From contig AP012044.1 in the NCBI GenBank assembly GCA_000283575.1, positions 1,984,001 to 2,048,000 of the forward strand: a stretch of DNA of 64,000 bases, written 5' to 3'. The position numbers and the translations under genes were made by a program. Source of the stretch: Oscillibacter valericigenes Sjm18-20. GTDB taxonomy: Bacteria > Bacillota > Clostridia > Oscillospirales > Oscillospiraceae. Positions within the stretch are counted from its first letter, which is position 1. Every line of letters begins with the position of its first letter. Of the stretch, positions 1,801 to 50,755 are shown piece after piece. Under the pieces are notes generated by a model. That model saw only the letters and a list, made by a program, of their open reading frames with translations, ran no database searches and was not told where the DNA came from.

Positions 1801-4119
1801 ATGCAACCGAAACTTTGCTCAAGATGCAAGAAAAACGTGGCCGTGGTTTTTATCTCCCGGCTGGACGGCGACAAAACCGTGAACGAAGGCCTGTGCCTGA
1901 AATGCGCAAGAGAGCTGGGTCTACCCCAGGTGGACGATATGATGAAGCGGATGGGGATTTCCGATGATGACCTGGATTCGCTGAACAGCGAAATGCTTCA
2001 GGCGTTTGACGGCGTGGAGAATGTGGAGGATCTGCCCAAGGAAGACGATTCCGACACGGAGGAGGAAGAGGGCAAGACCGCCACGTTCCCGTTCCTGAAC
2101 CGTCTGTTCAACGGCGAGTCCTCCTCCCGGAGAGATGAGCAGCCCGAGGGCGGTTCCGCCCGGGCGGAACGGGACAAGGAACGCAAAGGCGATAAAAAAC
2201 GCAAATATCTGGAGAGCTACTGCCTGAACCTGACAGAACGGGCAAAGGCCGGTAAGCTGGACCCGGTGATCGGCCGGGAACAGGAGATCGAGCGGGTCAT
2301 TCAGATCCTGAATCGCCGTCAGAAGAATAACCCCTGCCTGATCGGCGAGCCCGGCGTTGGCAAGACCGCAATCGCCGAGGGGCTTTCCCAGCGCATTTCC
2401 ACGGGGGATGTGCCCTTCAAGCTGCGGGAGAAGGAGGTCTATCTGCTGGATCTGACCGCTCTGGTGGCGGGCACCCAGTTCCGGGGCCAGTTTGAATCCC
2501 GGATGAAGGGCCTCATCGATGAAGTAAAGCGGCTGGGAAACATTATCCTCATGATCGACGAGGTCCACACCATTGTGGGTGCGGGAGACGCCGAGGGCAG
2601 CATGAACGCCGCAAACATTTTGAAGCCCGCCCTCTCCCGGGGCGAAATTCAGGTCATCGGCGCCACCACCTTTACGGAGTACCGCAAGTCCATCGAAAAG
2701 GATACCGCTCTGGAGCGGCGTTTCCAGCCGGTGACAGTGAACGAGCCGTCCATCGAGGACTCTATCCAGATTTTAAAAGGTCTGGCTCCGAAGTACGAGG
2801 CGTTTCACGGTGTGAAGCTCTCCGACGGAATCCTGCGTCAGGCGGTTCTGCTTTCCGAGCGGTACATTACCGATCGGTTCCTCCCGGATAAGGCCATTGA
2901 CCTGATCGACGAGGCGTGCTCCGACTTGAACCTGAAGGACCCGGATATCTCCCGCCGCATGGAGATCCAGCGGGAGCTGGACGACTATGAAAAGGAAAAC
3001 GCCATGCTGGAGGAGCTGGCCGCGGAAGACGGCGCAGAACCGGACTATGAGCGGATGGCGTTTTTAAAGAGCAAGCGGGCTCAGCTCAGCAAGGAGCTGC
3101 AGGGCCTTTTGGAGAAAGGCGCTCCTCAGCTTGCCATGGAGAATCTGGCGCATGTCATTGAGCTGTGGACAAAGATCCCTGCTTCCCGTATCCGGGAACA
3201 GGAGTTCCAGCGCCTGAGCCAGCTGGATATTCGCCTGGAATCCCACATCGTGGGTCAGGACGAGGCCGTGGAGGCTGTCACCGCCGCCGTGCGGCGGAAC
3301 CGGGTTGGCATCAGCCCCAAGCACAAGCCCGTCAGCTTTATTTTCGTCGGACCCACCGGCGTTGGCAAGACGGAACTGGTGAAGCAGTTGGCGAAGGATC
3401 TTTTCAACACGCCGGACGCCTTGATCCGGCTGGATATGTCTGAGTTTATGGAAAAGTACTCCGTCTCCCGCATTGTGGGGTCCCCCCCCGGCTATGTGGG
3501 CTATGACGAAGCGGGGCAGCTGACGGAAAAAATCCGCCGAAAGCCTTATGCTGTGATTTTGTTCGATGAAATTGAAAAGGCCCACCCGGACGTACTGAAC
3601 ATTTTGCTGCAAATTCTGGATGACGGAGAGATCACCGACTCCCATGGCCGGAAAGTCAACTTTGAAAACACCGTCATCGTTATGACCTCCAACGCCGGAA
3701 GTGCCACAAAAGAGGGAATGGTGGGCTTTGACCGTACCGCCGGGCAGCAGGACAAAGCAAAGGCCATGAAGGCTCTGGAGCAGTTTCTCCGCCCGGAGTT
3801 CATCAACCGCGTGGACGAGGTGATCTGCTTCAACCGGCTCAGTGAGGAGAATTTCCAGTCCATTGCCCGCATTATGCTGAAGGAGCTGTCCGTCTCCCTG
3901 AAGGAAAAGAATGTGACTCTGACCTATGACAACGAGCTGCTGGCGTATCTTACCCACAAGTCCTATTCCATGACCTATGGAGCCCGGAATTTGCGCCGTA
4001 CTATCCAGAAGGAGCTGGAGGACCCCATGGCGGCGCAGATGATCGATAGCTATGAGCACCCCGTATCCCAGATTCGGGCCACGGCGGAGAACGGGCAGGT
4101 AAAGATTTACGCTTTATAA
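1801..4119 (+). CDS. clpE: ClpE-like AAA+ unfoldase with N-terminal zinc finger
   Basis: A 772-residue Clp/Hsp100 ATPase. Residues 1-40 carry a four-cysteine zinc ribbon (C6, C9, C32, C35) in place of the usual Clp-N repeats, the signature that separates ClpE from ClpC. A first AAA+ module follows, with Walker A GEPGVGKT at about 182-189 and Walker B ILMIDEVH. Then come a short coiled middle region (about 400-450), a second AAA+ module with Walker A GPTGVGKT at about 517 and Walker [11 protein letters not shown], and a ClpB-D2-small C-terminal domain. It should unfold misfolded proteins for ClpP. The start is an ATG 9 bases after GGAGG. I see no tandem CtsR heptads upstream, so heat-shock control is unsupported. 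ClpC-type naming is the alternative. Confidence 0.88.
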
Positions 4120-4143
4120 GACCTGTAAAGGAAGGTGACTTTC

Positions 4144-4353
4144 GTGCTGTTTCGTAAAGACATCGATCCGAGGTGCGCGTACTGTCAGCGGGGCGCGCAG
4201 ATCAACGAGCGGGAGGTGGCCTGTGTGAAGCGGGGAATTGTGCCTGTGGAGAGCAGCTGCCGCAGCTTTCGGTACGACCCGCTGAAGCGGATACCGCCCC
4301 GGCCCGCCGTTTTGGATACAGCGCGTCTGAAGGAAGAGGATTTCTCGCTCTGA
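4144..4353 (+). CDS. small cysteine-containing conserved hypothetical protein
   Basis: A 69-residue basic protein that begins MLFRKDIDPRCAYC. It has a CxxC pair at residues 11 and 14 and two further cysteines (about 27 and 37), so a small zinc-binding fold is possible. I prefer the GTG at 4144 because AAGGAAGG lies 8 bases upstream; an in-frame GTG at 4135 lies inside that site. It starts 24 bases after clpE and ends 35 bases before the ferredoxin gene, so the three are probably cotranscribed. I recognise no characterised family member, and no function can be assigned. Confidence 0.65.
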   Translation: MLFRKDIDPRCAYCQRGAQINEREVACVKRGIVPVESSCRSFRYDPLKRIPPRPAVLDTARLKEEDFSL

Positions 4354-4388
4354 GAGCGGGTTAAAAAAGTAAAAGAGGGGAAACAGAT

Positions 4389-5210
4389 ATGGAGATCGGA
4401 AAAGTCCGGGCGGTTTATTACAGCGCAACCGGTACCACTGAGAAAGTGGTTACAGCTGTGGCCAGAACGCTGGCCTGCAAATTTGGGATGTCGCTGGAAA
4501 TGACGAACATCTCAACACCTGCGGAGCGTGAAAAGGAACTTTCCTTTACATCAACGGATCTGCTGGTGGTCGGTACACCCACCTATGCCGGGCGAATTCC
4601 AAATAAGATGCTGCCCTATTTCCAGACGAAGTTGACGGGAAACGGTGCGCTGGTGGTGCCGGTGGTACTGTTTGGCAACCGGAGCTTTGACAACTCTCTG
4701 GCGGAGCTGTGTACGGAACTGGAGGCCCACGGGTTCCACACGGTGGCTGCCGCCGCCTTTGTGGGGCAGCATGCCTTTGCCCCCCGGTTGGCTCCCGGCC
4801 GGCCTGACGGAGAGGATATTGCCCAGGCGGAGCGCTTCGCGGAGAAGGTCGCTGAAAAGGTGCAGGCCCTGACGGGGCTTTCCGCCTCTGTTCAGGTTCC
4901 CGGAGATCCTGCCGCACCCTATTACACGCCTATGGGTGTTGACGGTCAGCCCGCTAAATTTTTGAAGGCAAAGCCGCTGACTGTTATGGATAAATGCACC
5001 AAATGCGGACTGTGCGCCGCCGTTTGCCCCATGGGGTCCATCGACCCGGCGGACGTTTCCAGCGTCCCGGGCATTTGCATCAAGTGTCAGGCTTGTGTGG
5101 TCAAATGCCCCACCGGTGCAAAATATTTTGACGACCCGGCGTTCCTGTCTCACAAGGCCATGCTGGAGGCAAACTATACCCGCCGGGCAGAGAGCGAGTT
5201 GTTTTTGTAA
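4389..5210 (+). CDS. EFR1-type flavodoxin/ferredoxin fusion protein
   Basis: This 273-residue protein fuses an N-terminal flavodoxin-like domain (FMN-loop motif YSATGTTEK at about 11-19, TPTYAGRIP at about 62-70) to a C-terminal 2x[4Fe-4S] ferredoxin. The cluster motifs are CTKCGLCAAVCP (about 201-212) and CIKCQACVVKCP (about 220-231). The arrangement matches the EFR1 family of Clostridia. It probably carries low-potential electrons in the cytoplasm, but the partner enzyme is unknown and no redox operon surrounds it. The start is an ATG behind AGAGGGGAAACAGAT. A strong rho-independent terminator follows about 90 bases after the stop. Confidence 0.82.
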   Translation: MEIGKVRAVYYSATGTTEKVVTAVARTLACKFGMSLEMTNISTPAEREKELSFTSTDLLVVGTPTYAGRIPNKMLPYFQTKLTGNGALVVPVVLFGNRSFDNSLAELCTELEAHGFHTVAAAAFVGQHAFAPRLAPGRPDGEDIAQAERFAEKVAEKVQALTGLSASVQVPGDPAAPYYTPMGVDGQPAKFLKAKPLTVMDKCTKCGLCAAVCPMGSIDPADVSSVPGICIKCQACVVKCPTGAKYFDDPAFLSHKAMLEANYTRRAESELFL

Positions 5211-37631: not shown

Positions 37632-38657
37632 ATGACTATGAAAAGGAGTGTTTTTACTATTAGCAGTCTGACGAATTATCTGGAAACAGGATCACAGAAT
37701 CCCTGTTATAATTTGGCGTTTGAAGAGACCGTACTGGCCCGCAGGACGGTGGGGGACTATCTGCTTTTGTGGCAGAACGACAACACCATTGTCATTGGCC
37801 AGAACCAGAATGCCGAAGCGGAGATCAACCGCGCCTTTGTGGAGGAGCACCATATCCATGTGGTCCGCCGCACGACCGGAGGCGGTGCGGTATATCACGA
37901 TCTTGGAAATCTCAACTATTCCTTCATCACCGATGCCGGAAACGCTGAGCGCTTGGCTATGGAGCGATTTACAAAGCCCGTCGTGGAGGCGCTGAAGGGT
38001 TTGGGACTGAATGCGGAGGCCTCCGGTCGGAACGATATACTGGTGGAGGGCCGCAAGGTTTCCGGAACTGCCCAGCGGCTGATGAAAGGCCGTATCCTTC
38101 ATCATGGAACGCTGCTGTTTGACGCAAATCCCGGCATGGTGGCCGGAGCTTTGAATGTAGACCCTAAAAAATTCCAGTCTAAGGGCGCCAAATCCGTCCG
38201 CAGCCGGATCGGGAATATCCGGGAGTTTCTGCCTGAGAAAATGGGCATGACGGATTTCTGGAATTATTTGAAGACCGCACTGGCAGGCGGGGGTTTAACA
38301 GCTGACTCCCTCACGCAGGAGGAGCTGGCCGCCGTCGAGGAATTGAAGCGTACCAAGTACGACACGTGGGAGTGGAACTTCGGACGTTCTCCCAGATATG
38401 ATTTTACCGATAGGCGACGGTTTGACGGCGGAACGCTGGAACCGCAGATTGCCGTGGACAAGGGCCATATCACGCAGATCGTGTTTTACGGCGATTTTCT
38501 TTCGGTCTGCCCGCTGGACGAGTTGACGGAAGCGCTGAAGGGCTGTGTTTTCCGGCGGGAGGACGTGGCGGCGGTGCTGGACCGTTACCCGTTGGCGGAG
38601 TTGTTCGGCGGAATTCAAAAGAGCGAGATTTTGGATACGATGTTCCGCGCGGAGTGA
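37632..38657 (+). CDS. lplA: lipoate-protein ligase A
   Basis: A 341-residue LplA-type ligase (full length, with the C-terminal accessory domain) that activates lipoate with ATP and attaches it to lipoyl domains. Motifs include NPCYNLAFEE, VIGQNQNAEAEIN, RRTTGGGAVYHDLGNLNYSF (about 75-94), the catalytic Lys block ASGRNDILVEGRKVSGTAQR (about 134-153) and HHGTLL. It is the first gene of the operon that encodes E1 subunits, and its lipoyl-domain substrates (E2 and E3) are encoded 10-12 kb downstream. The start is odd: the ATG at 37632 lacks an upstream ribosome site, whereas AAAAGGAG lies inside the frame at 37641-37648. Confidence 0.93.
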   Translation: MTMKRSVFTISSLTNYLETGSQNPCYNLAFEETVLARRTVGDYLLLWQNDNTIVIGQNQNAEAEINRAFVEEHHIHVVRRTTGGGAVYHDLGNLNYSFITDAGNAERLAMERFTKPVVEALKGLGLNAEASGRNDILVEGRKVSGTAQRLMKGRILHHGTLLFDANPGMVAGALNVDPKKFQSKGAKSVRSRIGNIREFLPEKMGMTDFWNYLKTALAGGGLTADSLTQEELAAVEELKRTKYDTWEWNFGRSPRYDFTDRRRFDGGTLEPQIAVDKGHITQIVFYGDFLSVCPLDELTEALKGCVFRREDVAAVLDRYPLAELFGGIQKSEILDTMFRAE

Positions 38658-38676: not shown

Positions 38677-39675
38677 TTGAAAACGGAAGAAACGAGCTGC
38701 GGAGCGGGCTGGTACCGCGAGGCATACCGGCGGATGGCGCTGATCCGAGCCTTTGAAACAAAGGCCGCCGAGTGCTTTACCCGCAGCGAGCTGGCGGGAA
38801 ATATTCACCTGTATATGGGTCAGGAAGCCAGCGGCGTGGGCACATGCCTGGCGCTGAAGGATACGGATTACATCACATCCACTCATCGTGGACATGGGCA
38901 CTGCCTTGCGAAGGGAGCCAGTGTGGACCGGTCCCTGGCGGAGCTGTTTGGCAAGGAGACCGGCTATTGCCGGGGCCGGGGCGGGTCCATGCACATTGTG
39001 GACGTGAACCGGGGTATCCTGGGGGCCAACGGCATCGTGGGCGCGGGTATCCCGCTGGCGGCGGGCAGCGCACTGGCATCCAAGATCAAAGGAGACGGTG
39101 CGGTGACTGTGGCGTTTTTTGGGGACGGGGCTTCCAATCAGGGGACCTTTCATGAGACGCTGAACATGGCGGCCGCCTGGAAGCTGCCCGTTGTCTTCCT
39201 GCTTGAAAACAACTGCTACGGGGTCTCCACGGAGATTCACCGTATTACCAATACCAACCGTCTTGCGGTCCGGGCTGAGGCATATGGCATCCCCGGAGTT
39301 ACCGTGGACGGTACGGATGTAGAAGCCGTTTTCCACATCGTCGCCGGGGCGGTGGAACGCGCCCGTTCCGGCGACGGCCCCTCTCTTGTTGAGACGATGG
39401 TCTATCGATATCAGGGCCACTATTGCGGAGACCCCGCTGCCTATCGTCCCAAAGAGTACCTGACGGAGGGAAAGTCCAGGGACCCCATCGATAAGGCCCG
39501 GGCGCATCTCTTGAAGCTGGGCGTGAAGGAGACGGAGATCGGGGCCATCGACCGGAGCGTTGCGGCGGAGATTGAAAGCGCATATCAATTTGCGAAGAAC
39601 TCCCCAGACCCGGACCCTGCGGCGGTTATCGACAACGTCTATTCCTCCGACAACGAAAGGAGCGTGCTGAGATGA
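38677..39675 (+). CDS. thiamine-dependent dehydrogenase E1 alpha subunit (copy 1)
   Basis: A 332-residue TPP-dependent E1-alpha of the pyruvate/acetoin dehydrogenase type. The TPP-binding motif starts at GDGASNQGTFHETLNMAAAWKLP, with the Mg-binding Asn in ENNCYG. Other conserved blocks are STHRGHGHCLAKG (about 68-80) and GRGGSMHI. It decarboxylates a 2-oxoacid or cleaves acetoin and passes the acyl group to an E2 lipoyl arm. The start is a TTG at 38677 with AAAGGAG 8 bases upstream; the longer in-frame extension overlaps lplA and lacks a ribosome site. The stop overlaps the E1-beta start (ATGA). It is a paralogue of the gene at 45470. Confidence 0.92.
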   Translation: MKTEETSCGAGWYREAYRRMALIRAFETKAAECFTRSELAGNIHLYMGQEASGVGTCLALKDTDYITSTHRGHGHCLAKGASVDRSLAELFGKETGYCRGRGGSMHIVDVNRGILGANGIVGAGIPLAAGSALASKIKGDGAVTVAFFGDGASNQGTFHETLNMAAAWKLPVVFLLENNCYGVSTEIHRITNTNRLAVRAEAYGIPGVTVDGTDVEAVFHIVAGAVERARSGDGPSLVETMVYRYQGHYCGDPAAYRPKEYLTEGKSRDPIDKARAHLLKLGVKETEIGAIDRSVAAEIESAYQFAKNSPDPDPAAVIDNVYSSDNERSVLR

Positions 39676-40646
39676 AGCTCACCGTCAGCAAGGCCATCGG
39701 CCAGGCGCTTCACGAGGAGATGGAGCGGGACAAAAATGTAATTTTACTGGGCGAAGACGTGGGCGTTATGGGCAATGTCTTCGCCATAACCAGAGGCTTT
39801 CGGGACGAGTTCGGTCCCGACCGGGTCATCGATACTCCCATCAGCGAATCCGGCTTCACCGGAATTGCCGTAGGTGCGGCTATGAGAGGTCTGCGGCCCG
39901 TGGTGGAGTGGATGTACGACGACTTTATCACGGTGTGCCTTGACCCGGTAATGAATCAGGCGGCAAAGCTGCGGTACATGACCGGGGGGCAGGTAAAAAT
40001 CCCCATGGTCTTTCGGGCGCCCATGGGCGCGGGGCGGCGAAACGCCGGACAGCATTCCCAGTGTCTGGAGGCGCTGTTTACCCACATTCCCGGACTGAAG
40101 GTGGTTTGTCCATCCACGGCGGCGGACGCCAAGGGCCTTTTGAAGGCTGCGATCCGGGATGACGACCCTGTGGTGTTTCTGGAACACAAACTGCTTTACG
40201 CCAGAAAGGAAGAACTGCCCGACAGCGAGTATATCGTCCCTCTGGGCAAGGCTGATATCAAGCGTCCCGGCAAAGACGTGACGATTCTCACATGGTCCCG
40301 TCAGGTCTTTTTTGCGCTGGAAGCCGCCGAGACTCTGGCGGCGGAGGGCATTGACGCGGAGGTCGTGGACCTTCGGACGCTGGTGCCTCTGGACTGGGAG
40401 GCGATAAAAGCCTCCGTCTGCAAAACTCACAACGTAATCGTTGTGGAGGAGGGCGTAAAGCGCGGCGGCGTGGGCGCGGAGCTGTCTGCGCAGATTACGG
40501 AGGAACTGTTTGACGAGCTGGATTCCCCTGTGGGCCGCGTGGCGGGGCTGAACGTGGTTTCCCCCTTTTCCCCGGTGCTGGAGGATGCGGAATTTCCCCA
40601 TCCAGAGGATATTGCAGCCGGCGTGAAAAAAACGCTGGGCCGCTGA
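39672..40646 (+). CDS. thiamine-dependent dehydrogenase E1 beta subunit (copy 1)
   Basis: A 324-residue E1-beta with the transketolase pyrimidine-binding domain (about 1-180; LGEDVGVMGNVFAITRG, DTPISESGFTGIAVGAAM) and the transketolase C-terminal domain (about 195-320; VEEGVKRGGVGAELSAQI). With the upstream E1-alpha it forms the alpha2-beta2 E1. The start overlaps the alpha stop by four bases, so translation is coupled. AcoB and PdhB are about the same length, so the substrate (acetoin, pyruvate or another 2-oxoacid) cannot be set from the subunit alone. It is a paralogue of the gene at 46478. Confidence 0.93.
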   Translation: MKLTVSKAIGQALHEEMERDKNVILLGEDVGVMGNVFAITRGFRDEFGPDRVIDTPISESGFTGIAVGAAMRGLRPVVEWMYDDFITVCLDPVMNQAAKLRYMTGGQVKIPMVFRAPMGAGRRNAGQHSQCLEALFTHIPGLKVVCPSTAADAKGLLKAAIRDDDPVVFLEHKLLYARKEELPDSEYIVPLGKADIKRPGKDVTILTWSRQVFFALEAAETLAAEGIDAEVVDLRTLVPLDWEAIKASVCKTHNVIVVEEGVKRGGVGAELSAQITEELFDELDSPVGRVAGLNVVSPFSPVLEDAEFPHPEDIAAGVKKTLGR

Positions 40647-40658
40647 GGGGGAACGCAT

Positions 40659-41150
40659 ATGGCTGAGAAAATGAGACTTCACGCGTCACCCTATGCAAAA
40701 AAAACGGCGAGGGAGCTGGGTGTGGTATTAGGGACCCTGACCGGTACCGGTCCCGGTGGACGGATTGTCTGGCGGGATGTGGAGGCCGCGTCAAAGACGG
40801 CGGAAAAGCCATCCGGCGGCATGATAGCCGGATATTACACCACGGCAGATGTGAGTGAGCTGCTAATGGCGCTGAAAACTCTGAGCGGAGCGCTGACTTT
40901 TCCCGCCTTCGCGGAGCGGGCCGCAGCCCGGCTAAACGTGCCGGTCCGGTTTTCCGGAAACGGCGTGGAGGGCGCGCTCCCCGCGCTGATATCCGGCGAG
41001 ACCATTGCAATGGCGGTGGGGCACCCCACGGATGGACATGTGCGTATATATATGGTTTATGATTCCGCCGCGGTGAGCGATGAAATGGCGGCGGATATGC
41101 TGCGGTCCATGAGTCGGCTGCTGGAAAAGCCGCTGACCATGCTGGTGTGA
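40659..41150 (+). CDS. small degenerate E2-like protein (PSBD plus truncated acyltransferase fold)
   Basis: A 163-residue protein that starts directly with a peripheral subunit-binding domain (about 7-43: ASPYAKKTARELGVVLGTLTGTGPGGRI, then the DVEAA end). The following segment (about 55-163) resembles pieces of an E2 acyltransferase domain and ends LLEKPLTMLV, parallel to LLENPYMLLV of the full E2 at 47480. It has no lipoyl domain. The active-site DHRVVDG of E2 is replaced by DSAAVSDE, so the catalytic His and Asp are lost. It cannot be a working transacylase. The PSBD should still bind E1 or E3, so an adaptor, regulatory or assembly role is plausible. The ATG follows GAGGGGGAACGCAT. Confidence 0.8.
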   Translation: MAEKMRLHASPYAKKTARELGVVLGTLTGTGPGGRIVWRDVEAASKTAEKPSGGMIAGYYTTADVSELLMALKTLSGALTFPAFAERAAARLNVPVRFSGNGVEGALPALISGETIAMAVGHPTDGHVRIYMVYDSAAVSDEMAADMLRSMSRLLEKPLTMLV

Positions 41151-41159
41151 GAACAAAGA

Positions 41160-41182
41160 GGGAACGCGCAAAGTGCGTTCCC
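41160..41182 (+). terminator. hairpin between the copy-1 dehydrogenase operon and the converging MBL gene
   Basis: GGGAACGCGC / GTGCGTTCCC (one mismatch) with an AAA loop lies 10 bases after the stop of the E2-like gene. There is no clear T-run, so termination strength is uncertain. Confidence 0.5.
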
Positions 41183-41189
41183 GGAGGAT

Positions 41190-41903
41190 TTATTCAAAGA
41201 TTTCTCGCTGGAGCGGCTCCAGAAACAACCGCAGATCCTCCACATGGACTCGTTCCGCGGCTTTGAGCACCGCCCGGCGATAACCGAAAATATCGTCTGA
41301 TGCAAAGGGCAGGTGATACACAGCCAGACGGCGGGGACGAATGAACTGCTCAATAAACCGCCGCCCTTTCTCTAACGTAATCCATGGAAAATCCAGCAGA
41401 GCCAGGTCCACCGGGCCGGTTTCCTGCAAGAACTCCCGCAGGGCGGGGCTGGCCACGGCGCAGTCCCCGGGAATCAGGACCCGGAAGCCGCTCCGGTCCA
41501 GAAGGCATCCATAATGAGCCACTTTTGCGTATTGTTCCCCCTCGTGGGGCAGGCGGATGAACTGTATGGACAGTTCCGGCAGGAATAGCTGCTCCCGCGG
41601 ACGGGAGAGCAGAAGCTGATTTTCAAACCGACGTTCCGGCAGAATCGCCTCCGCAAAAGGCCATCGTTCCAACGCCTGCCGGGTTAGACGCTGAGAGAAG
41701 TGGTCCGGGTGGCAGTGGGTGTAAAAAATCAGATTTGGCTCTGCAAAATCCGGATGGGCGGCCACAGCTGCCTTTAGTCCGGGATAGAGCGTGGAAAACC
41801 CGGAGACGGCTTTATCATGCAGAGCGTCCACCCACAGGCGGATGCCGCCGAGATGCAGGGCCGCGCCGGCATTGGCGCTGAGTGTGATCTGACATATCGA
41901 CAT
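41190..41903 (-). CDS. MBL-fold hydrolase (UlaG/RNase-Z-like beta-lactamase fold)
   Basis: A 237-residue MBL-fold protein with a canonical zinc motif THCHPDHF (about 62-69: H63, H65, D67, H68). A metal-bridging Asp is likely in LIPGDCAVA (about 140-148), and a terminal His in YHLPFAS (about 196-202). It resembles the UlaG-like group of cytoplasmic MBL enzymes in lacking a signal peptide. The ATG at 41903 has AAAGGAG about 10 bases upstream; a longer in-frame start at 41942 lacks one. It faces the copy-1 dehydrogenase operon. Substrate unknown; placement in the island hints at a thioester or lactone hydrolase, which is inference only. Confidence 0.8.
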   Translation of the reverse strand: MSICQITLSANAGAALHLGGIRLWVDALHDKAVSGFSTLYPGLKAAVAAHPDFAEPNLIFYTHCHPDHFSQRLTRQALERWPFAEAILPERRFENQLLLSRPREQLFLPELSIQFIRLPHEGEQYAKVAHYGCLLDRSGFRVLIPGDCAVASPALREFLQETGPVDLALLDFPWITLEKGRRFIEQFIRPRRLAVYHLPFASDDIFGYRRAVLKAAERVHVEDLRLFLEPLQREIFE

Positions 41904-41984
41904 GTCGCAGGTGCTCCTTTGGGTAAGAGTTGAATAAATTTTCATTTTAAATATCTGAGATAACTTATTGTCAGTATAACACAT

Positions 41985-42291: not shown

Positions 42292-42816
42292 ATGAGAGTC
42301 TACAAAAAGATCATGGACGTCATTGCCGGAATTGAGAAGGTCGTTCTCAGTGCGGTTCTGGTTTTTGTCACCGTGATCACCTTCGCAAATGTCTTGGTCC
42401 GCAAACTGAGCGACAGCCAGTTTGCCTGGACGGAAGAGCTGGTTATCAACCTGTTCGTTCTGATGATCATGCTGGGCTGTGCATTGGGTGCACGGGAGGG
42501 CAGTCTGATTAGCCTGTCCCTGATTTTTGACCGCCTGAAGGGCGGCGGGAAAAAGGTGTTCGTGCTGATTATCACAGCGGCTAACACCGTCTTCTGGGTT
42601 ATTTTGTTAAAGACCGGCATCGATAAGGTCCTGACTCAGATTGCCAACGGCAAGCACACCTTCTCCCTCAACTGGCCCGAGTGGGTATTCACCATCTTTC
42701 TGCCCATCGGCTGCGTATTTTTGATCCTGCACACAATTGAATTCTGCATCGATACACTGACCGATAACGTACTCTCCGTGAAACCAGATGAGAAAGAGGA
42801 AGGAGGAAACGACTAA
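42292..42816 (+). CDS. TRAP transporter small permease (DctQ type)
   Basis: A 174-residue membrane protein with four hydrophobic helices (about 17-37, 50-70, 88-108, 129-150), as in the DctQ family. The characteristic block FAWTEELVINLFVLMIMLGCALGARE lies at about 44-69. It is the small membrane subunit that pairs with DctM. Its stop overlaps the large permease ATG (TAATG). It belongs to the DctQ-DctM-DctP order here, with the binding protein last. Confidence 0.92.
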   Translation: MRVYKKIMDVIAGIEKVVLSAVLVFVTVITFANVLVRKLSDSQFAWTEELVINLFVLMIMLGCALGAREGSLISLSLIFDRLKGGGKKVFVLIITAANTVFWVILLKTGIDKVLTQIANGKHTFSLNWPEWVFTIFLPIGCVFLILHTIEFCIDTLTDNVLSVKPDEKEEGGND

Positions 42817-44135
42817 TGATAAACCTGATTCTATTTGGTTCCTTCTTCATTATGCTGTTTCTGAACATCCCCATTTGCGCAAGTCTTGGACTGTCGTCCA
42901 TTCTGGCGATGATCTACTCCGGGGATAAACTCTCCGTGGTTCCCACCAATATTTACAACGGCATGGCAAAGTTCCTGCTGCTGGCCATCCCGTTCTTCGT
43001 CCTCTCCGGCAACATCATGGCAAAGGCCGGAATCTCTACCCGTCTGGTGCAGTTTATTGATGACTGCATTGGCCACCGCCGCGGCGGTATCGCCATCGTG
43101 TGTGTTATCGTAGCCTGTTTCTTTGGCGCGATTTCCGGCTCCGGCCCGGCCACTGTGGCGGCTTTGGGTATCATCCTGATTCCCGCTATGATTAACCGCG
43201 GCGGCTTCTCCGCACCCTTCTCCTCCGCCCTGATGGCGACGGCTTCTTCTATTGCTATCGTCATTCCGCCTTCCATCGCGTTTGTGGTGTATGCATCTCT
43301 GGTCAGCGATACCTCTGTGGGTGACATGTTCATGGGTGGTATCCTTCCCGGTATTATGATGGGTCTTGCTTTGGTGGTCATTATCATGATCGAGGTTCGC
43401 CGCAAGGGCCTGACAGTCTCCCGGGAGCGGGCTACCTGGGGCCAGAGATGGAAGTCTTTTCGCAGCGCATTTTGGGGCTTTCTGATGCCCGTCATTATTC
43501 TTGGCGGCATCTATGGCGGTTTCTTCACTCCTACCGAGGCGGCAGCTGTCTCCGTAGTATACGGTCTGATCGTTGGTGTGTTTATTTACCGTGAGGTTAA
43601 ACTTCGGGATCTGTACGACCTGTTGGTCGATTCCGGCAAGACCACCGGTGGCATCATGCTTATCATCGGTGGTGCCACTCTGTTCTCCTATATCTGCACG
43701 GTCCACGGTATTTCCGGTGCGGCTCAGCAGCTGCTGCTGAGTATCTCTGCCAACAAGTACGTGTTCCTGCTAATTGTCAACGTGATCTTCCTGATTGCCG
43801 GCTGTTTTGTAGACGCCAACTCCGCCATGTACATCTTCATTCCGATCATGTGGCCTGTGGCAAAGCAGCTGGGCATCGATCCGGTTCACTTCGGTGTACT
43901 GTCCACTGTGAACTTGGCTATTGGTCAGGTGACACCCCCCGTGGGCGTGAATCTGTTCGTGGCCATTGGCGTCAGCGACAAGCTGAAGGATATCAGGGAT
44001 AAGACAAGGGTCACGATTGAATCGATGTCCAGAGCTGTATGGCCCATGATTATCGCCTGCATCATCACGCTGCTGATCGTCACCTATATTCCTTTCTTCT
44101 CCACTGTGTTCCTAGGCACCGCGTCTGCGGCCTGA
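42816..44135 (+). CDS. TRAP transporter large permease (DctM type)
   Basis: A 439-residue polytopic protein with about 12 helices. DctM hallmarks include LAIPFFVLSGNIMAKAGIS (about 49-67), CFFGAISGSGPATVAALGIILIPAM (about 103-127), IPPSIAFVVYASLVSDTSVGDMFMGGILPGI, and ITPPVG-type GQVTPPVGVNLFVA (about 370-383). It forms the ion-coupled channel with the DctQ subunit. The overlap with the upstream stop indicates coupled translation. Elevator-type secondary uptake of an organic acid is the family role. Confidence 0.94.
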   Translation: MINLILFGSFFIMLFLNIPICASLGLSSILAMIYSGDKLSVVPTNIYNGMAKFLLLAIPFFVLSGNIMAKAGISTRLVQFIDDCIGHRRGGIAIVCVIVACFFGAISGSGPATVAALGIILIPAMINRGGFSAPFSSALMATASSIAIVIPPSIAFVVYASLVSDTSVGDMFMGGILPGIMMGLALVVIIMIEVRRKGLTVSRERATWGQRWKSFRSAFWGFLMPVIILGGIYGGFFTPTEAAAVSVVYGLIVGVFIYREVKLRDLYDLLVDSGKTTGGIMLIIGGATLFSYICTVHGISGAAQQLLLSISANKYVFLLIVNVIFLIAGCFVDANSAMYIFIPIMWPVAKQLGIDPVHFGVLSTVNLAIGQVTPPVGVNLFVAIGVSDKLKDIRDKTRVTIESMSRAVWPMIIACIITLLIVTYIPFFSTVFLGTASAA

Positions 44136-44214
44136 TTCAAGGATCTGCCATCACGCAAGTGATTTCAGATAACGCAACTTGATTACGCAACCAAAATTTT
44201 AAGGAGGAAAAACA

Positions 44215-45279
44215 ATGAAAAAGTTTCTTGCATTGGCCATGGCCCTGTCTATGACCGCGACGCTGCTGGCCGGTTGCGGCGGCAATTCGGCTGCATCTTC
44301 TTCCGCTGCTTCCAGCGGTTCTTCATCCAGCGCTGCCGCTTCCAGCGGCGCGACCACCTTTGATAAGAAGACCTGGAAGTTTGCCTGCTCCGCCACGGAG
44401 AACACCTGCTGGGCGGACATGGGCCGTGACTTCGGTCAGATGGTTTCCGACGCCACCGGCGGCGCCGTCACGGTGGAGGTTTACGCTGCCGACCAGCTGA
44501 CTGCTGGCAACCAGTCCGAGGGCATTCAGGCCGTTATCGACGGCACCACGGAGCTGTCCGCCCACTCCAATCTGATCTATTCCGCGTTTGACTCACGCCT
44601 GAATGTGGTCTCCCTGCCCTTCCTGTTTGACTCCTTTGACGATGTGGATGCAAAGCTGGACGGCGCCGGCGGCGAGGCCCTTGGCGAGGTCGTCGAGAGC
44701 ATGGGACTGCACCTGCTGGGCATCGGTGAGAACGGCTTCCGTCATCCCACCAACAGCGTCCGTCCCATCACCTGCTTGGCAGACATGAAGGGCCTGAAGC
44801 TCCGTGTCGCCGGCTCCGACCTGCTGAACGCCGAGTACACCAAGTGGGGCGCCAACTGGGCTAACGCCAACTGGTCCGAGGTTTACACCGGACTGCAGAC
44901 CGGTACTTATGACGGTCAGGAGAACCCCCTGCCCACCGCTGACGGCGCTTCGATTTCCGAGGTTCAGAAGTATGTCACCTATTGGACCGGCGTGTATGAC
45001 TGCATCTTCTTCTGCATGAACGCAGATCTGTATAATTCCCTGTCTCCCGAGCTGCAGGCGATCGTTGACGAGTGCGGCCAGAAGGCGGCCCAGAATCAGC
45101 GCGCACTGGAGCGCGAGCAGGATCAGACCATCCTGAAGAAGTGGGAAGATGCCGGTATCACCGTCACCGAGCTGACTCCCGAAGCTGCCGAGGAGTTTAA
45201 GCAGGCTTCTCAGCCCTGCTATGACGAGTTCGCCGACAAGCTGACTCCCGAACTGATCGCTGCCTTTACGAAGGACTAA
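44215..45279 (+). CDS. TRAP transporter substrate-binding lipoprotein (DctP family)
   Basis: A 354-residue lipoprotein. The signal peptide and lipobox LLAGC put the Cys at about residue 20, followed by a Ser/Ala linker (about 23-42). The DctP domain contains LPFLFDSFDDVDAKLDG (about 136-152), the ligand-binding Arg region MKGLKLRVAGSDLLNAEYTKWGANW (about 191-215), and the GLQTGTYDGQENPLPT block (about 223-238). The conserved Arg that contacts carboxylates is present (KLRVAGS), which favours an organic acid ligand. Position between two E1 operons suggests it imports their substrate or a precursor. The ATG follows AAGGAGG. Confidence 0.92.
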   Translation: MKKFLALAMALSMTATLLAGCGGNSAASSSAASSGSSSSAAASSGATTFDKKTWKFACSATENTCWADMGRDFGQMVSDATGGAVTVEVYAADQLTAGNQSEGIQAVIDGTTELSAHSNLIYSAFDSRLNVVSLPFLFDSFDDVDAKLDGAGGEALGEVVESMGLHLLGIGENGFRHPTNSVRPITCLADMKGLKLRVAGSDLLNAEYTKWGANWANANWSEVYTGLQTGTYDGQENPLPTADGASISEVQKYVTYWTGVYDCIFFCMNADLYNSLSPELQAIVDECGQKAAQNQRALEREQDQTILKKWEDAGITVTELTPEAAEEFKQASQPCYDEFADKLTPELIAAFTKD

Positions 45280-45469: not shown

Positions 45470-46465
45470 ATGGCAACCACAAAGGCTGCACAGGCAGCAT
45501 ACACCCGGGAACAGGCCAGGAAATTTTACGAGACCATGTCTACGATTCGCCATTTCGAGGAGAGCATCAAGCATGACTCTCTGGCCGGCGAGATTCCCGG
45601 TTTCGTGCATCTGTATATCGGCGAGGAGGCAATTGCCACCGGCGTGTGCGCCGCTTTGCGGAAGGACGATATGATCGAGTCCACGCACCGCGGCCATGGC
45701 CACTGTATTGCCAAGGGCGCAGATGTGAACCGGATGATGGCTGAGATTTTCGGAAAGAAGACCGGCCTGTGCCAGGGCCGTGGCGGCTCCATGCATATCG
45801 CGGATTTCTCCATCGGAATGCTGGGCGCCAACGGCGTGGTGGGCGGCGGTTATAACCTGGCCACGGGCGCGGCGCTTGCCAACAAGATGGTTCTGAAGAA
45901 TGACAAGGTCTCCGTGGTCTTCTTTGGCGACGGAGCCTCCAACCGTGGTACTTTTCACGAGGCCATGAACGTGGCTTCCGCGTGGCACCTGCCCGTCATT
46001 TTCGTCAATGAGATGAACTGCTGGGCGTCCACCACACCGTATCGTACCACCTGCAACACCGAAAATATCTCCGACCGCGCATATGGATACCATGTGCCCG
46101 GCGTTGTGGTTGACGGCCAGGATGTGTTTGCCGTCTATGAAGCTGCCAAGACGGCTGTGGAGCGCGCCCGCAAGGGGGAGGGCCCCACGTTTATCGAGGC
46201 GAAGACCTACCGGATTGAGGGTCACTATGTGGGCGACCCCGAACTGTATCGTGAGAAAGAAGAGACGCAGAAGATTTTCCACGACACGGATCCTCTGAAG
46301 ATGTTCCGCGAAAAAGCGGCGAAGCTGAAAGTCATGACCGCCGCGGACTGCGGTGCTGTCGACGAAGCCTGCGCCAAAAAGATCAAGGCAGCCAAGAAGT
46401 TCGCCATGGAGTCCGAGTATCCCGATTCCAGCGAATACTTGAAGTACGTCTACGTGGATGACTAA
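45470..46465 (+). CDS. acoA: acetoin dehydrogenase-type E1 alpha subunit (copy 2)
   Basis: A 331-residue TPP-dependent E1-alpha. The TPP motif runs from GDGASNRGTFHEAMN (about 164-178) to NEMNCW (about 183-188). STHRGHGHCIAKGADVNRM (about 69-87) and GRGGSMHIADFSIG are conserved. It heads the order alpha, beta, E2, E3 with a lipoyl-bearing E3, the arrangement of the acoABCL operon of Clostridium magnum. Acetoin cleavage to acetaldehyde plus acetyl-CoA is therefore the best guess; a pyruvate or branched-chain dehydrogenase is the alternative. The ATG follows AGAAGGGAG. The leader (45365-45469) is AT-rich and contains TTGACA at 45387. Confidence 0.88.
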   Translation: MATTKAAQAAYTREQARKFYETMSTIRHFEESIKHDSLAGEIPGFVHLYIGEEAIATGVCAALRKDDMIESTHRGHGHCIAKGADVNRMMAEIFGKKTGLCQGRGGSMHIADFSIGMLGANGVVGGGYNLATGAALANKMVLKNDKVSVVFFGDGASNRGTFHEAMNVASAWHLPVIFVNEMNCWASTTPYRTTCNTENISDRAYGYHVPGVVVDGQDVFAVYEAAKTAVERARKGEGPTFIEAKTYRIEGHYVGDPELYREKEETQKIFHDTDPLKMFREKAAKLKVMTAADCGAVDEACAKKIKAAKKFAMESEYPDSSEYLKYVYVDD

Positions 46466-46477
46466 GGAGGAATAAAC

Positions 46478-47452
46478 ATGCGTAAATTGACGTTTGCTCA
46501 GGCCACTTGCGAGGCAATGGCCGAGACTATGGAAAAGGATTCCGCCATATTTGCAATGGGTGAGGATCTGGCCCGTCAGGGCGGAATCTTCGGCCAGTTC
46601 AAGGGATTGCCGCAGCAGTTCCCGGGCCGTATTTTGGATACCCCCATTTCCGAGACCTTCATCATCGGCGGCGGCGTGGGTGCGGCTCTGGCCGGTGCCC
46701 GTCCTGTGGTGGATATGCACTTTGCGGATTTCATCGGCGTCCCCATGGATGAGATCTTCAACCAGATGGCAAAGGCCCGTTACATGTTCGGCGGCCAGGC
46801 CAAGGTGCCTCTGGTTCTGCGCGCGCCGGACGGCATGACCTTCCAAGGTGCCGCACAGCACTCCCAGTGCGTGGAGGCCTGGTTCCCCCACATTCCCGGC
46901 ATCAAGGTGGTGGCCCCCTCCAATCCCTATGACGCCAAGATGGTGCTGATTGCCGCCATCGAGTCCGACGACCCTGTGCTGTACTTCGAGAACAAGATCC
47001 TCTACAAGGAAAAAGGCGAGCTGCCCGAGGCAGCGGACCAGAAGCCGTATAAGCTGGGAACCGCGCGGGTAGAGCGCGAGGGCACCGACGTAACCATCGT
47101 CTCTTACTCCATCGGAATGAAGAACGCCCGCGGTGCCGCAGACCTGCTGGCCAAGGACGGCATCAAGGCCGAGGTTGTGGACCTCATCACCCTGTCCCCA
47201 TGGGATAAGGAGACGGTGCTGAACTCCGTGAAGAAAACCCATCGTCTTTGCATTGTCCACGAGGCCGTCAAGCAGAGCGGCTTCGGCGCCGAGATTGCCG
47301 CCACCGTCGCCGAAGAGGCCATGGAATATATGGACGCTCCGATCCTGCGGTACGGTGCTCCGTTCTGCCCCATTCCCTTCGCCCCCACGCTGGAGAAAAT
47401 GGTGCGAGTGAATCCGGAGGACCTGTACAAGGGCATCAAGGGCATGTTTTAA
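46478..47452 (+). CDS. acoB: acetoin dehydrogenase-type E1 beta subunit (copy 2)
   Basis: A 324-residue E1-beta with a transketolase pyrimidine domain (about 1-175; MGEDLARQGGIFGQFKGLPQQF, DTPISETFIIGGGVGAALAGARPVVDMHF) and a C-terminal domain (about 195-320; VHEAVKQSGFGAEIAATV). It pairs with the upstream alpha subunit, 12 bases away, and has AAGGAGG before the ATG. It is a paralogue of the gene at 39672 (same length, clearly alignable) but differs in many active-site-adjacent residues, so the two E1 enzymes may have different substrates. Confidence 0.9.
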   Translation: MRKLTFAQATCEAMAETMEKDSAIFAMGEDLARQGGIFGQFKGLPQQFPGRILDTPISETFIIGGGVGAALAGARPVVDMHFADFIGVPMDEIFNQMAKARYMFGGQAKVPLVLRAPDGMTFQGAAQHSQCVEAWFPHIPGIKVVAPSNPYDAKMVLIAAIESDDPVLYFENKILYKEKGELPEAADQKPYKLGTARVEREGTDVTIVSYSIGMKNARGAADLLAKDGIKAEVVDLITLSPWDKETVLNSVKKTHRLCIVHEAVKQSGFGAEIAATVAEEAMEYMDAPILRYGAPFCPIPFAPTLEKMVRVNPEDLYKGIKGMF

Positions 47453-47479: not shown

Positions 47480-48820
47480 ATGGCAACTGAAGTATTGATG
47501 CCGAAAATGGGTCTGACTATGACCGAAGGCACCATTGAAGAGTGGAAAAAGAAGGAGGGCGACGCGGTCAAGGCGGGCGACGTGCTGTTCTCCGTGGCTA
47601 CCGATAAACTGACCAACGACGTGGAGTGCGACACCGACGGAACCCTCCTGAAAATCCTCTTTGGCGAGGGAGAGACCGTTGCCTGCAAGACCGTTATTGC
47701 TTGGATCGGCGCCTCCGGCGAAGCGATTCCCGGCGCTTCTGCCGCTTGTGCATCCGTTCCCGCCGCAGCCCCGGCCGCCGGGACTGCTCCGGAGGCCGCT
47801 GCATCCGCCGCTGGTGCGAGCCGCGCGCCCGGCGAGTATGTTCTGGCCACCCCCCGTGCCAAGAAGCTGGCAAAGGACAAGGGCTATGACCTTTCACGGA
47901 TTCCCGGGACAGGACCCAAGGGCACCGTGGTGGCGAAGGACGTGGAGTCCTTCATGGCCGGTCCCAAGACCAGCCCCATGGCCGCAAAGCTGGCCGCCGA
48001 GCTGGGCGTGGATGTGAGCAACCTGAACATCAATGGCCGGGTGATGAAGGCCGACGTGCTGACTGCCGCCGGAAAGACTGCGGCTGCTCCCGCAGCAGAA
48101 GCCGCCGCGGAAGCGCTCGTTCCGGGCAGCAACGACGAAGCGCCCAGGAAGGTAAGCCCGCTGCGCCGCAGTATCGCCGCCAACATGACAGAATCCTGGC
48201 ACACCGCTCCCCGTGTTACCTACACGCGCCCGGTGGAAGCAACGGCCATGAAAGACCTGCGCGCCAAACTGAAGGACGACCTGAAGGCAAAAGGCGTCAA
48301 GCTGACCTACAACCACATCCTGATGATGGTCGTCACCAGGGCTCTGACGGAGTTCCCTGATATCAACTCCAGCTTCGTGGACAACATGCTGACCCATCAT
48401 CCCCATGTCAACATCGGCCTGGCAGTGGCCAAGGGAGACGGCCTGATCGTTCCCAACGTGAAAAATGCCGAGACCAAGTCTCTGGCGGAGATCGCCGTCG
48501 AGACGGAGAGACTGATCGCGGATACCCGTGACGGCAAGGTTCAGATGGAGGACATCACCGGCGGAACGTTTACCATTTCCTCTCTCGGTCCCTATGGAAT
48601 CACCAGCTTCTCCCCCATCATCAATCAGCCTGAGCTGGGGATTCTGGGTGTTTGTGATATGGTGGATACCCCGGTGGTCCGCGACGGCCAAATTGTCATC
48701 CGCACCATGATGAACCTGTCCCTGACTGCCGACCACCGCGTGGTGGATGGCGTCATGGCCTCCAAGTTCCTCAAGCGCATCGCCGAGCTGCTGGAAAATC
48801 CGTATATGCTGCTGGTCTGA
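47480..48820 (+). CDS. acoC: dihydrolipoamide acyltransferase E2
   Basis: A 446-residue E2. The lipoyl domain is about 1-77 with the lipoyl-lysine at K43 in ATDKLTND, followed by an Ala/Pro hinge (about 82-118). A peripheral subunit-binding domain lies at about 121-156 (ATPRAKKLAKDKG...GTGPKGTVVAKDVE). A second, weaker PSBD-like segment lies at about 165-195 (SPMAAKLAAELGVDVSNL). The catalytic domain (about 222-446) contains the active-site DHRVVDG (H419, D423). It accepts an acyl group from E1 and passes it to CoA. AAAAGGAG precedes the ATG at 47480. It is cotranscribed with acoAB and separated from the E3 gene by a structured 210-base gap. Confidence 0.93.
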   Translation: MATEVLMPKMGLTMTEGTIEEWKKKEGDAVKAGDVLFSVATDKLTNDVECDTDGTLLKILFGEGETVACKTVIAWIGASGEAIPGASAACASVPAAAPAAGTAPEAAASAAGASRAPGEYVLATPRAKKLAKDKGYDLSRIPGTGPKGTVVAKDVESFMAGPKTSPMAAKLAAELGVDVSNLNINGRVMKADVLTAAGKTAAAPAAEAAAEALVPGSNDEAPRKVSPLRRSIAANMTESWHTAPRVTYTRPVEATAMKDLRAKLKDDLKAKGVKLTYNHILMMVVTRALTEFPDINSSFVDNMLTHHPHVNIGLAVAKGDGLIVPNVKNAETKSLAEIAVETERLIADTRDGKVQMEDITGGTFTISSLGPYGITSFSPIINQPELGILGVCDMVDTPVVRDGQIVIRTMMNLSLTADHRVVDGVMASKFLKRIAELLENPYMLLV

Positions 48821-49030: not shown

Positions 49031-50755
49031 ATGGTAACTGAAGTTCTGATGCCAAAAATGGGCCTGACCATGACGGAGGGCACCATTGAGGAATGGAAAA
49101 AGAAGGAGGGCGACGCCGTCAAGGTGGGCGACGTTCTGTACTCCGTGGCTACCGATAAGCTGACCAACGATGTGGAGTGCGACACCGAGGGTACCCTGCT
49201 GAAGATCCTGTCCGGCGAGGGAGAAACCGTAGCCTGCAAGACCGTGGTGGCCTATATTGGCCAGCCCGGAGAGGCGGTCCCCGCCGGCGGAGCTGCCGCT
49301 CCCGCGGCGGCACTCACAGCCGCGGCTCCGGCTGCTGCCCCCGTCGCAGCCGGCAGCAAGACCGTTGTGGTGGTGGGCGGCGGCCCCGGCGGCTATGTTG
49401 CCGCCATCCGAGCTGCGCAGCTGGGCGCCAAAGTCACGGTGATCGAGCAAGAACACCTGGGTGGCACTTGCCTGAATATCGGCTGCATTCCCACCAAGTG
49501 CCTGCTGCACAGCGCGGAGCTGATCTCCCAGATCAAGGATCAGGGCGCCGATATCGGCGTGAAGGTCGACGGCGTCGCCGTGGACTTCCCTCAGGTTATC
49601 CGGCATAAAAACGCCGTCTCCAAGCAGCTTACCTCAGGCGTGGCGGGCCTTTTGAAGCTCAACAAGGTGGCCAAAATCGACGGCGAGGCCGCGTTTACCG
49701 CACCCGGGACTCTGAGCGTAAAGAAGACGGACGGTTCTATAGAGAACATGACCGCCGATGCCATCATTGTGGCCACCGGCTCCGTCAATTTTGCGCCTCC
49801 CATTCCCGGCCTGAAGGAGAACCCCAACTGCATTGATTCCACCGGCGCACTGAGCCTTTCCGAGCTGCCCAAGTCCATGGTGGTCATCGGCGGCGGCGTC
49901 ATCGGTCTTGAACTGGCTTGCGCCTATGCGGCGTTCGGTACGAAAATCACTGTCGTTGAGGCGCTGGACCACATGCTGCCCATGCTGGACGGCGACCTCA
50001 CCGCGATCGGCGAGGCCCACATGAAGAGGATGGGCATGGAGTTTCATCTGGAATGCCCTGTGCAGGCTGTGGAGTCCTCTCCCGTGGGCGCGAAGGTGGT
50101 CTGCAAGAACAGGGCGGGCGAGACCGTCAGCTTTGAGGCGGAAAAGGTCCTGGTGGCGATCGGCCGCCGCGCCAACACCGCATCCCTAAATCTGGAGGCC
50201 GGCGGACTGAACAACGACCGGGGCCGCATCCTTGTCAACGATAAGATGGAGACCAGCGTTCCCGGCATATACGCCATCGGAGACTGCGTCATGGGCCATG
50301 CCCAGCTGGCGCACACCGCCTCTGCCATGGGCGAGGTGGCTGCCGAGAATATCTGCGGCGTTCCCGCTGTATATGACGAGAAGACCAACCCCACCTGCGT
50401 ATACATGGAGCCGGAGGCTGCCGGCGTGGGGCTCACCGAGGAGCAGTGCAAGGCCAAGGGGATGAAATACAAGGTCGGCAAGTTCCCCATGAGCGCCAAC
50501 GGGAAGGCTCTGATCCTCAACGGCGGCGAGGGCCTGGTCAAAATCATAGCCGACGCCAAGTACGGCGAGGTGCTGGGTATGCACATCATCGGGCCCCGTG
50601 CCACGGACCTGATCGCCGAGGGCGCGCTGGCCATCCGTCTGGAAGCCACGGTAGACGAGCTGATCTCCACCATCCACTCTCACCCCACCGTCACCGAGAC
50701 CCTGCGCGAGGCGGCTTTGAATGTGGAAAAAAGATCCATTCACATGAAAAATTAA
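49031..50755 (+). CDS. lpdA: dihydrolipoamide dehydrogenase E3 with N-terminal lipoyl domain
   Basis: A 574-residue E3, about 100 residues longer than ordinary LpdA. It starts with a lipoyl domain (about 1-77, K43 in ATDKLTND) nearly identical to that of the E2, and an Ala/Pro hinge. The flavoprotein fold follows: FAD motif VVVGGGPGGYVAA (about 113-125), redox-active cysteines C147 and C152 in GGTCLNIGCIPTKC, NAD motif VVIGGGVIGLELA (about 280-292), and the C-terminal His-Glu pair in HSHPTVTETLREAA. It reoxidises the dihydrolipoyl arms with NAD+. Lipoyl-E3 fusions are known from clostridial acetoin dehydrogenase systems. GAAAGAAGGAC precedes the ATG. Confidence 0.95.
   Translation: MVTEVLMPKMGLTMTEGTIEEWKKKEGDAVKVGDVLYSVATDKLTNDVECDTEGTLLKILSGEGETVACKTVVAYIGQPGEAVPAGGAAAPAAALTAAAPAAAPVAAGSKTVVVVGGGPGGYVAAIRAAQLGAKVTVIEQEHLGGTCLNIGCIPTKCLLHSAELISQIKDQGADIGVKVDGVAVDFPQVIRHKNAVSKQLTSGVAGLLKLNKVAKIDGEAAFTAPGTLSVKKTDGSIENMTADAIIVATGSVNFAPPIPGLKENPNCIDSTGALSLSELPKSMVVIGGGVIGLELACAYAAFGTKITVVEALDHMLPMLDGDLTAIGEAHMKRMGMEFHLECPVQAVESSPVGAKVVCKNRAGETVSFEAEKVLVAIGRRANTASLNLEAGGLNNDRGRILVNDKMETSVPGIYAIGDCVMGHAQLAHTASAMGEVAAENICGVPAVYDEKTNPTCVYMEPEAAGVGLTEEQCKAKGMKYKVGKFPMSANGKALILNGGEGLVKIIADAKYGEVLGMHIIGPRATDLIAEGALAIRLEATVDELISTIHSHPTVTETLREAALNVEKRSIHMKN

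Follow-up and report, generated by a model that had tools for sequence, protein, structure and literature searches.

A shrunken, putatively inactive E2 in an Oscillibacter E1 operon as a candidate bacterial counterpart of the E3-binding protein

Introduction

Which function could be left to the acyltransferase (E2) of a 2-oxoacid dehydrogenase complex once its catalytic motif is gone? The question is raised by a gene at 40659-41150 of the 64,000-nucleotide stretch of Oscillibacter valericigenes Sjm18-20 DNA analysed here (the window; contig AP012044.1, positions 1,984,001 to 2,048,000, from a two-contig genome of 4,470,622 bases). The gene follows those for the α and β subunits of a dehydrogenase (E1a1 and E1b1, together E1 copy 1 or E1-1) and encodes a protein here called mini-E2. 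A second cluster downstream encodes E1 copy 2, a full E2 (E2-2) and a dihydrolipoyl dehydrogenase (E3) fused to a lipoyl domain (lipoyl-E3). A preliminary description, made from the sequence, had taken mini-E2 for a catalytically dead E2, selected rather than decaying, that could attach E1 copy 1 or E3 to the core formed by the full E2 from 47480. Alignment, trees and a structure model of modest confidence show that mini-E2 is a shrunken E2, and it is under purifying selection that is looser than that on the neighbouring genes. Recruitment of E1 copy 1 or E3 to the 47480 core is the best-fitting function, and it rests on the evolution of gene order.

Results

The reading frame of mini-E2 starts with ATG, comprises 163 codons with no internal stop and is preceded by a purine-rich AGGGGG whose end lies 7 nt from the ATG. 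Only 12 bases separate the E1b1 stop (40646) from that ATG, leaving no room for an overlooked lipoyl domain, so a wrongly chosen start is ruled out. At E ≤ 0.1 the sole Pfam match was E3_binding (PF02817, residues 8-42, E 1.1e-13), the peripheral subunit-binding domain (PSBD), and neither the lipoyl (PF00364) nor the acyltransferase (PF00198) family was detected at that threshold; another Pfam scan gave one extra row, at E 0.17. The acyltransferase catalytic domain (CAT, PF00198) went unrecognised at E up to 0.1 in all five orthologues described below. When mini-E2 is aligned with E2-1, the full E2 found at the same place in related genomes, DSAAVSD stands opposite DHRLLDG; the motif DHRxxDG is present in none of the five orthologues, and the C-terminal end of the CAT remnant remains E2-like. 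Reading frame, Pfam and alignment thus confirm a 163-residue protein with a PSBD, with no lipoyl domain and with DHRxxDG replaced, and the loss of the motif supports the earlier judgement that mini-E2 would be catalytically dead. The structure model, built from two orthologues (mean predicted local distance difference test, pLDDT, 65.7; residues 1-28 and 48-53 below 50), has a fold that corresponds to E2 catalytic domains.

Mini-E2 was found in five of 86 Oscillibacter genomes (O. valericigenes, O. ruminantium, G484, G471 and G035). Orthologues of E1b1 with at least 69% identity occur in 28 of the 86, and the five with at least 89% identity are precisely the mini-E2 carriers, which form a clade with an ultrafast bootstrap (UFBoot) of 92. 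In 20 of the 23 non-carrier relatives the slot after E1b1 is occupied by a full E2 that has DHRxxDG and is 413-423 residues long (527 in one case); in the remaining three the contig ends before the slot. HHalign scored the five orthologues against 19 full E2-1 proteins at 50.6 across the final 62 columns; the highest score among 200 column-shuffled controls was 27.7. The part of mini-E2 outside the PSBD is hence derived from an acyltransferase. Relative to a full E2, mini-E2 has lost a 13-residue hairpin, 74-76 internal residues and much of the N-terminal arm; all five carriers lack 72-76 internal residues, part of the arm and DHRxxDG. In the tree from PSBD and CAT columns a split with UFBoot 100 places mini-E2 together with full E2-1, albeit with long branches, and the same split has UFBoot 71 on PSBD columns alone, where the five mini-E2s fail to group as a clade. 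The shared slot and the grouping at UFBoot 100 together identify mini-E2 as E2-1 minus its catalytic part; derivation of its PSBD and CAT from E2-2 is ruled out by the tree. Mini-E2 thus shares common descent with the E2 acyltransferases.

An N-terminal lipoyl domain is kept in three of the five orthologues and is missing from those of O. valericigenes and O. ruminantium, so that its absence there is probably a later loss. The layout is therefore not unique to the window protein, since O. ruminantium has the same one and three further orthologues differ in carrying the lipoyl domain. The lipoyl domains of these longer mini-E2s are 71-79% identical to those of E2-2 and lipoyl-E3 and 54-57% to that of E2-1; by identity they look E2-2/E3-like, making the three proteins putative mosaics, as if the domain had been swapped or homogenised within the cluster. 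The lipoyl tree, of poor resolution, gave no clade uniting mini-E2 with E2-2. The lipoyl domains of E2-2 (47480-48820) and lipoyl-E3 (49031-50755) are themselves 89% identical, which suggests exchange or homogenisation within the cluster.

Selection was estimated as ω, the ratio of nonsynonymous to synonymous rates, by the method of Nei and Gojobori (NG86) between O. valericigenes and O. ruminantium, with a 95% bootstrap interval. For the whole gene ω was 0.206 (0.123-0.325); by segment it was 0.069 (residues 1-46), 0.69 (a 12-residue linker) and 0.257 (residues 56-163). The eleven genes measured nearby gave 0.041-0.113. Over all ten pairs of the five carriers the CAT part gave ω of 0.19-0.35 at partly saturated synonymous divergences (dS) of 0.8-2.3. 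At these divergences the frame is intact in all five species, while in a neutral simulation (0.88 substitutions per site, no indels) only 6 of 2000 copies remained stop-free. An ω well below 1 together with open frames leads us to reject a pseudogene, and bears out the earlier view that the gene is selected rather than decaying. That description had named intact homologues, or an ω near 1, as signs of a decaying pseudogene: homologues with lipoyl domain and DHRxxDG do exist, in 20 of the 23 relatives, but ω is close to 0.2 instead of 1, and five species retain the shrunken form. A translated, functionless remnant of E2-1 in slow decay would agree with the full-length homologues, with domains lost in succession and with an ω higher than that of the neighbours; it is very improbable given the 97.5% bound of 0.325 on ω and the frames kept open across five species. 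Since the PSBD is the most conserved part and two species have no lipoyl domain, mini-E2 might also act as a free PSBD, a decoy in competition with E2-2 for E1 or E3, which would adjust stoichiometry with no docking on the core. The decoy would not need the CAT remnant, yet this part is under selection in five species and ends like an E2, and we regard such a role as improbable.

Gene order points to what the remnant may do. Where the contig allows it to be seen, the E1-1 module of relatives has its own full E2 and lipoyl-E3, and in G018, G412 and G458 the second cluster (transporter genes, E1a2, E1b2, E2-2 with two PSBDs, lipoyl-E3) stands at a separate locus. In four of the five carriers (the window, O. 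ruminantium, G484 and G471) the E1-1 module adjoins the second E1-E2-E3 cluster and has neither an E3 nor an E2 core of its own, only the shrunken E2; G035 is too fragmented to show such a merger, and a different gene lies beyond mini-E2 there. E2-2 is the only PF00198 match in G484 and G035 (assemblies 88% and 71% complete), so no other core for E1-1 is visible in these two. The solved structures resembling both E1 β subunits are pyruvate and other 2-oxoacid dehydrogenases. No lplA was found ahead of E1a1 in G484.

Discussion

We propose, with a probability of roughly 0.57, that E2-1 was reduced stepwise after the merger and now serves as an adaptor docking E1 copy 1 on a shared E2-2 core. 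In the model, the E2 of an E1a-E1b-E2-E3 module would have been reduced step by step once it stood beside the genes of the second complex. The condensed CAT domain of mini-E2 would dock on the core built by E2-2 and its PSBD would hold E1 copy 1, possibly E3, allowing two E1 enzymes to use a single E2 core and a single lipoyl-E3, along with the lipoyl arms of both; in the species whose mini-E2 has no lipoyl domain, E1-1 would be served by the arms of E2-2 and E3. Mini-E2 would then be a bacterial, independently evolved counterpart of the eukaryotic E3-binding protein (E3BP, protein X), probably for E1 and not for E3.

Several points weigh against this proposal. As far as its sequence tells, the PSBD may accept either E1 or E3, and E2-2 already has two PSBDs of its own. 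Because much of the N-terminal arm of CAT is gone, docking need not use the normal trimer contacts, and the predicted fold is of low confidence, from two sequences only. The ω of the CAT part (0.26) exceeds that of all 11 neighbours and, like the 0.69 of the linker, is also compatible with relaxed constraint. The merger is not visible in the fragmented G035, and which module moved is not settled, since it is the E1-1 module that the transporter genes accompany in G020, G022, G460, G438 and G006. Finally, O. valericigenes, O. ruminantium and G471 hold another full E2 elsewhere.

A different assignment of partners is conceivable, with mini-E2 recruiting E3 as E3BP does in animals and fungi, and the PSBDs of E2-2 left to the two E1s. 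Its architecture is of the same kind as that of fungal protein X, and wherever mini-E2 occurs and the region is covered, the E1-1 module lacks a dedicated E3. An arginine beside the PSBD loop glycine, described as universally preserved (PMC10156792), is kept in all five mini-E2s and missing from the first PSBD of E2-2 in four of the five carriers, G035 retaining it and the window having threonine. It is however equally missing, as threonine or isoleucine, from E2-2 of the five genomes inspected that have no mini-E2, and therefore its loss does not track the adaptor; a division of labour through this residue was rejected as evidence on that ground and by its retention in G035. Moreover, mini-E2 lies behind the E1a-E1b pair, and not behind E3, in four of the five carriers, a contig break intervening in G035. 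Recruitment of E3 is on balance unlikely.

The animal E3BP (PDHX) keeps a nearly full-length CAT domain, its chain in structure 6h60 having 233 residues, unlike mini-E2, which retains about 108 CAT residues. The closest known kind of protein is the eukaryotic E3BP/protein X, mini-E2 being derived from a bacterial E2 instead. Fungal protein X, as in Neurospora crassa, has the order lipoyl-PSBD-reduced CAT, with a core fold inherited from the E2 domain (PMC10156792), and certain Eurotiomycetes sequences have no lipoyl domain (PMC7494870); the statement in the preliminary description that no protein of this layout was known goes too far in view of these proteins. Like the fungal protein, mini-E2 is an E2 paralogue with a PSBD and a putatively inactive core domain, a condensed version of the CAT fold, and, like some of the fungal sequences, it has no lipoyl domain; unlike it, mini-E2 clusters with an Oscillibacter E2 and is encoded in an E1 operon. 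Two features listed for E3BP in PMC10156792 recur here: a domain order consistent with homology to E2 (i) and, judging by homology and motif loss, a dead acetyltransferase-homologous domain (iii). The list also names a PSBD specific for E3 (ii) and an M3-like motif (iv); mini-E2 does have a PSBD, which may hold E1 or E3. Orthology to the eukaryotic E3BP, argued in 2023 to be a eukaryotic gene (PMC10156792), was not found, mini-E2 grouping with E2-1 of its own genus (UFBoot 100) and sharing its slot, in a tree without eukaryotic sequences. A literature search of partial coverage returned no bacterial E3BP. In the hybrid pyruvate/2-oxoglutarate dehydrogenase (PDH-ODH) complex of Corynebacterium glutamicum two different E1s work on one E2-E3 (PMC7568260, PMC10415282), as proposed here for Oscillibacter; the second E1 there, OdhA, also performs the acyl transfer itself, whereas in Oscillibacter a separate dead E2 would be the anchor. 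Going by its description, MRPS36 of the 2-oxoglutarate dehydrogenase complex is likewise a small adaptor taking on a PSBD function, but it is eukaryotic only (PMC9974300) and mini-E2 is bacterial.

Why an E2 gene became a dead subunit is asked in PMC10156792. Oscillibacter displays stages side by side, with an intact E2 in sister species, a core-less form with lipoyl domain and a core-less form without it, so that the way in which dead core subunits arise can be tested in a simple bacterial system; the series also suggests a route by which a multienzyme complex gains a second substrate. It is possible, though at somewhat less than even odds, that bacteria evolved E3BP-like dead E2s independently and more than once, in Oscillibacter and in a second family of Clostridia, to attach another E1, specific for its own substrate, to an E2-E3 core already in place. 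There would then be one core and two E1s, and what was once the E2 of the second complex would have become a docking clip.

Other reduced E2s and neighbouring features

In two of 16 genomes of another Clostridia family (G819 and G513) the gene after E1a-E1b encodes a lipoyl-PSBD protein with some 110 further residues ending in AEKPWLAAVK, and a full E2 and a fused E1 are encoded elsewhere. The genes ahead of the E1a-E1b pair are presumably those of an aldehyde dehydrogenase and of succinyl-CoA synthetase subunits. As with mini-E2, this is the third gene of an E1a-E1b run, its product has a PSBD and a short C-terminus, and a full E2 lies elsewhere; unlike that of mini-E2, the C-terminal part matched neither three E2 sets nor mini-E2 significantly by HHalign, with scores of 11.7-16.5 (95% level of the shuffles 17.4, from a control against E2-1 only). 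The case hints at repeated evolution and is a lead, not a proof. Full E2s with one or two PSBDs and no lipoyl domain occur in G796 (L033), G844 (L114), G809 (L115) and G772 (L116); such a domain is present on the adjacent E3 in G796 and G772.

Table 1. Features of the window and the two reduced proteins of the second Clostridia family
Feature	Coordinates	Strand	Remarks
lplA, lipoate-protein ligase	37632..38657	+	opens the gene run
E1 alpha, copy 1	38677..39675	+	start inferred from O. ruminantium orthologue
E1 beta, copy 1	39672..40646	+	89-94% identity in the 4 other mini-E2 genomes
mini-E2	40659..41150	+	163 aa; PSBD and condensed CAT domain, without catalytic motif
PSBD (PF02817, E3_binding)	40680..40784	+	residues 8-42; strongest-constrained part of mini-E2
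Condensed CAT domain	40824..41147	+	residues 56-163; predicted fold resembles E2 catalytic domains
Site of lost catalytic motif	41061..41084	+	DSAAVSDE here, DHRLLDG in E2-1
8-pair hairpin	41160..41182	.	between two convergent genes; terminator-like on - strand
Convergent neighbour gene	41190..41984	-	264 aa
Three-gene run	42292..45279	+	transporter genes
E1 alpha and beta, copy 2	45470..47452	+	
Full E2 (E2-2)	47480..48820	+	has a lipoyl domain, two PSBDs and a CAT domain (DHRVVDG); putative common core
Lipoyl domain fused to E3 (dihydrolipoyl dehydrogenase)	49031..50755	+	
Reduced lipoyl-PSBD protein	L109:3540-4379	+	approximate start
Reduced lipoyl-PSBD protein	L111:3675-4590	-	approximate start

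The convergent neighbour is taken by us to be an MBL fold protein, and the three-gene run to encode the TRAP transporter components DctQ, DctM and DctP. In G412 (L124:426-1420, 3183-4477) lplA and a DctM-like gene each match in two pieces; an interruption or a misassembly is possible. Terminator-like sites in the region numbered 12, with 13.7 expected from shuffles.
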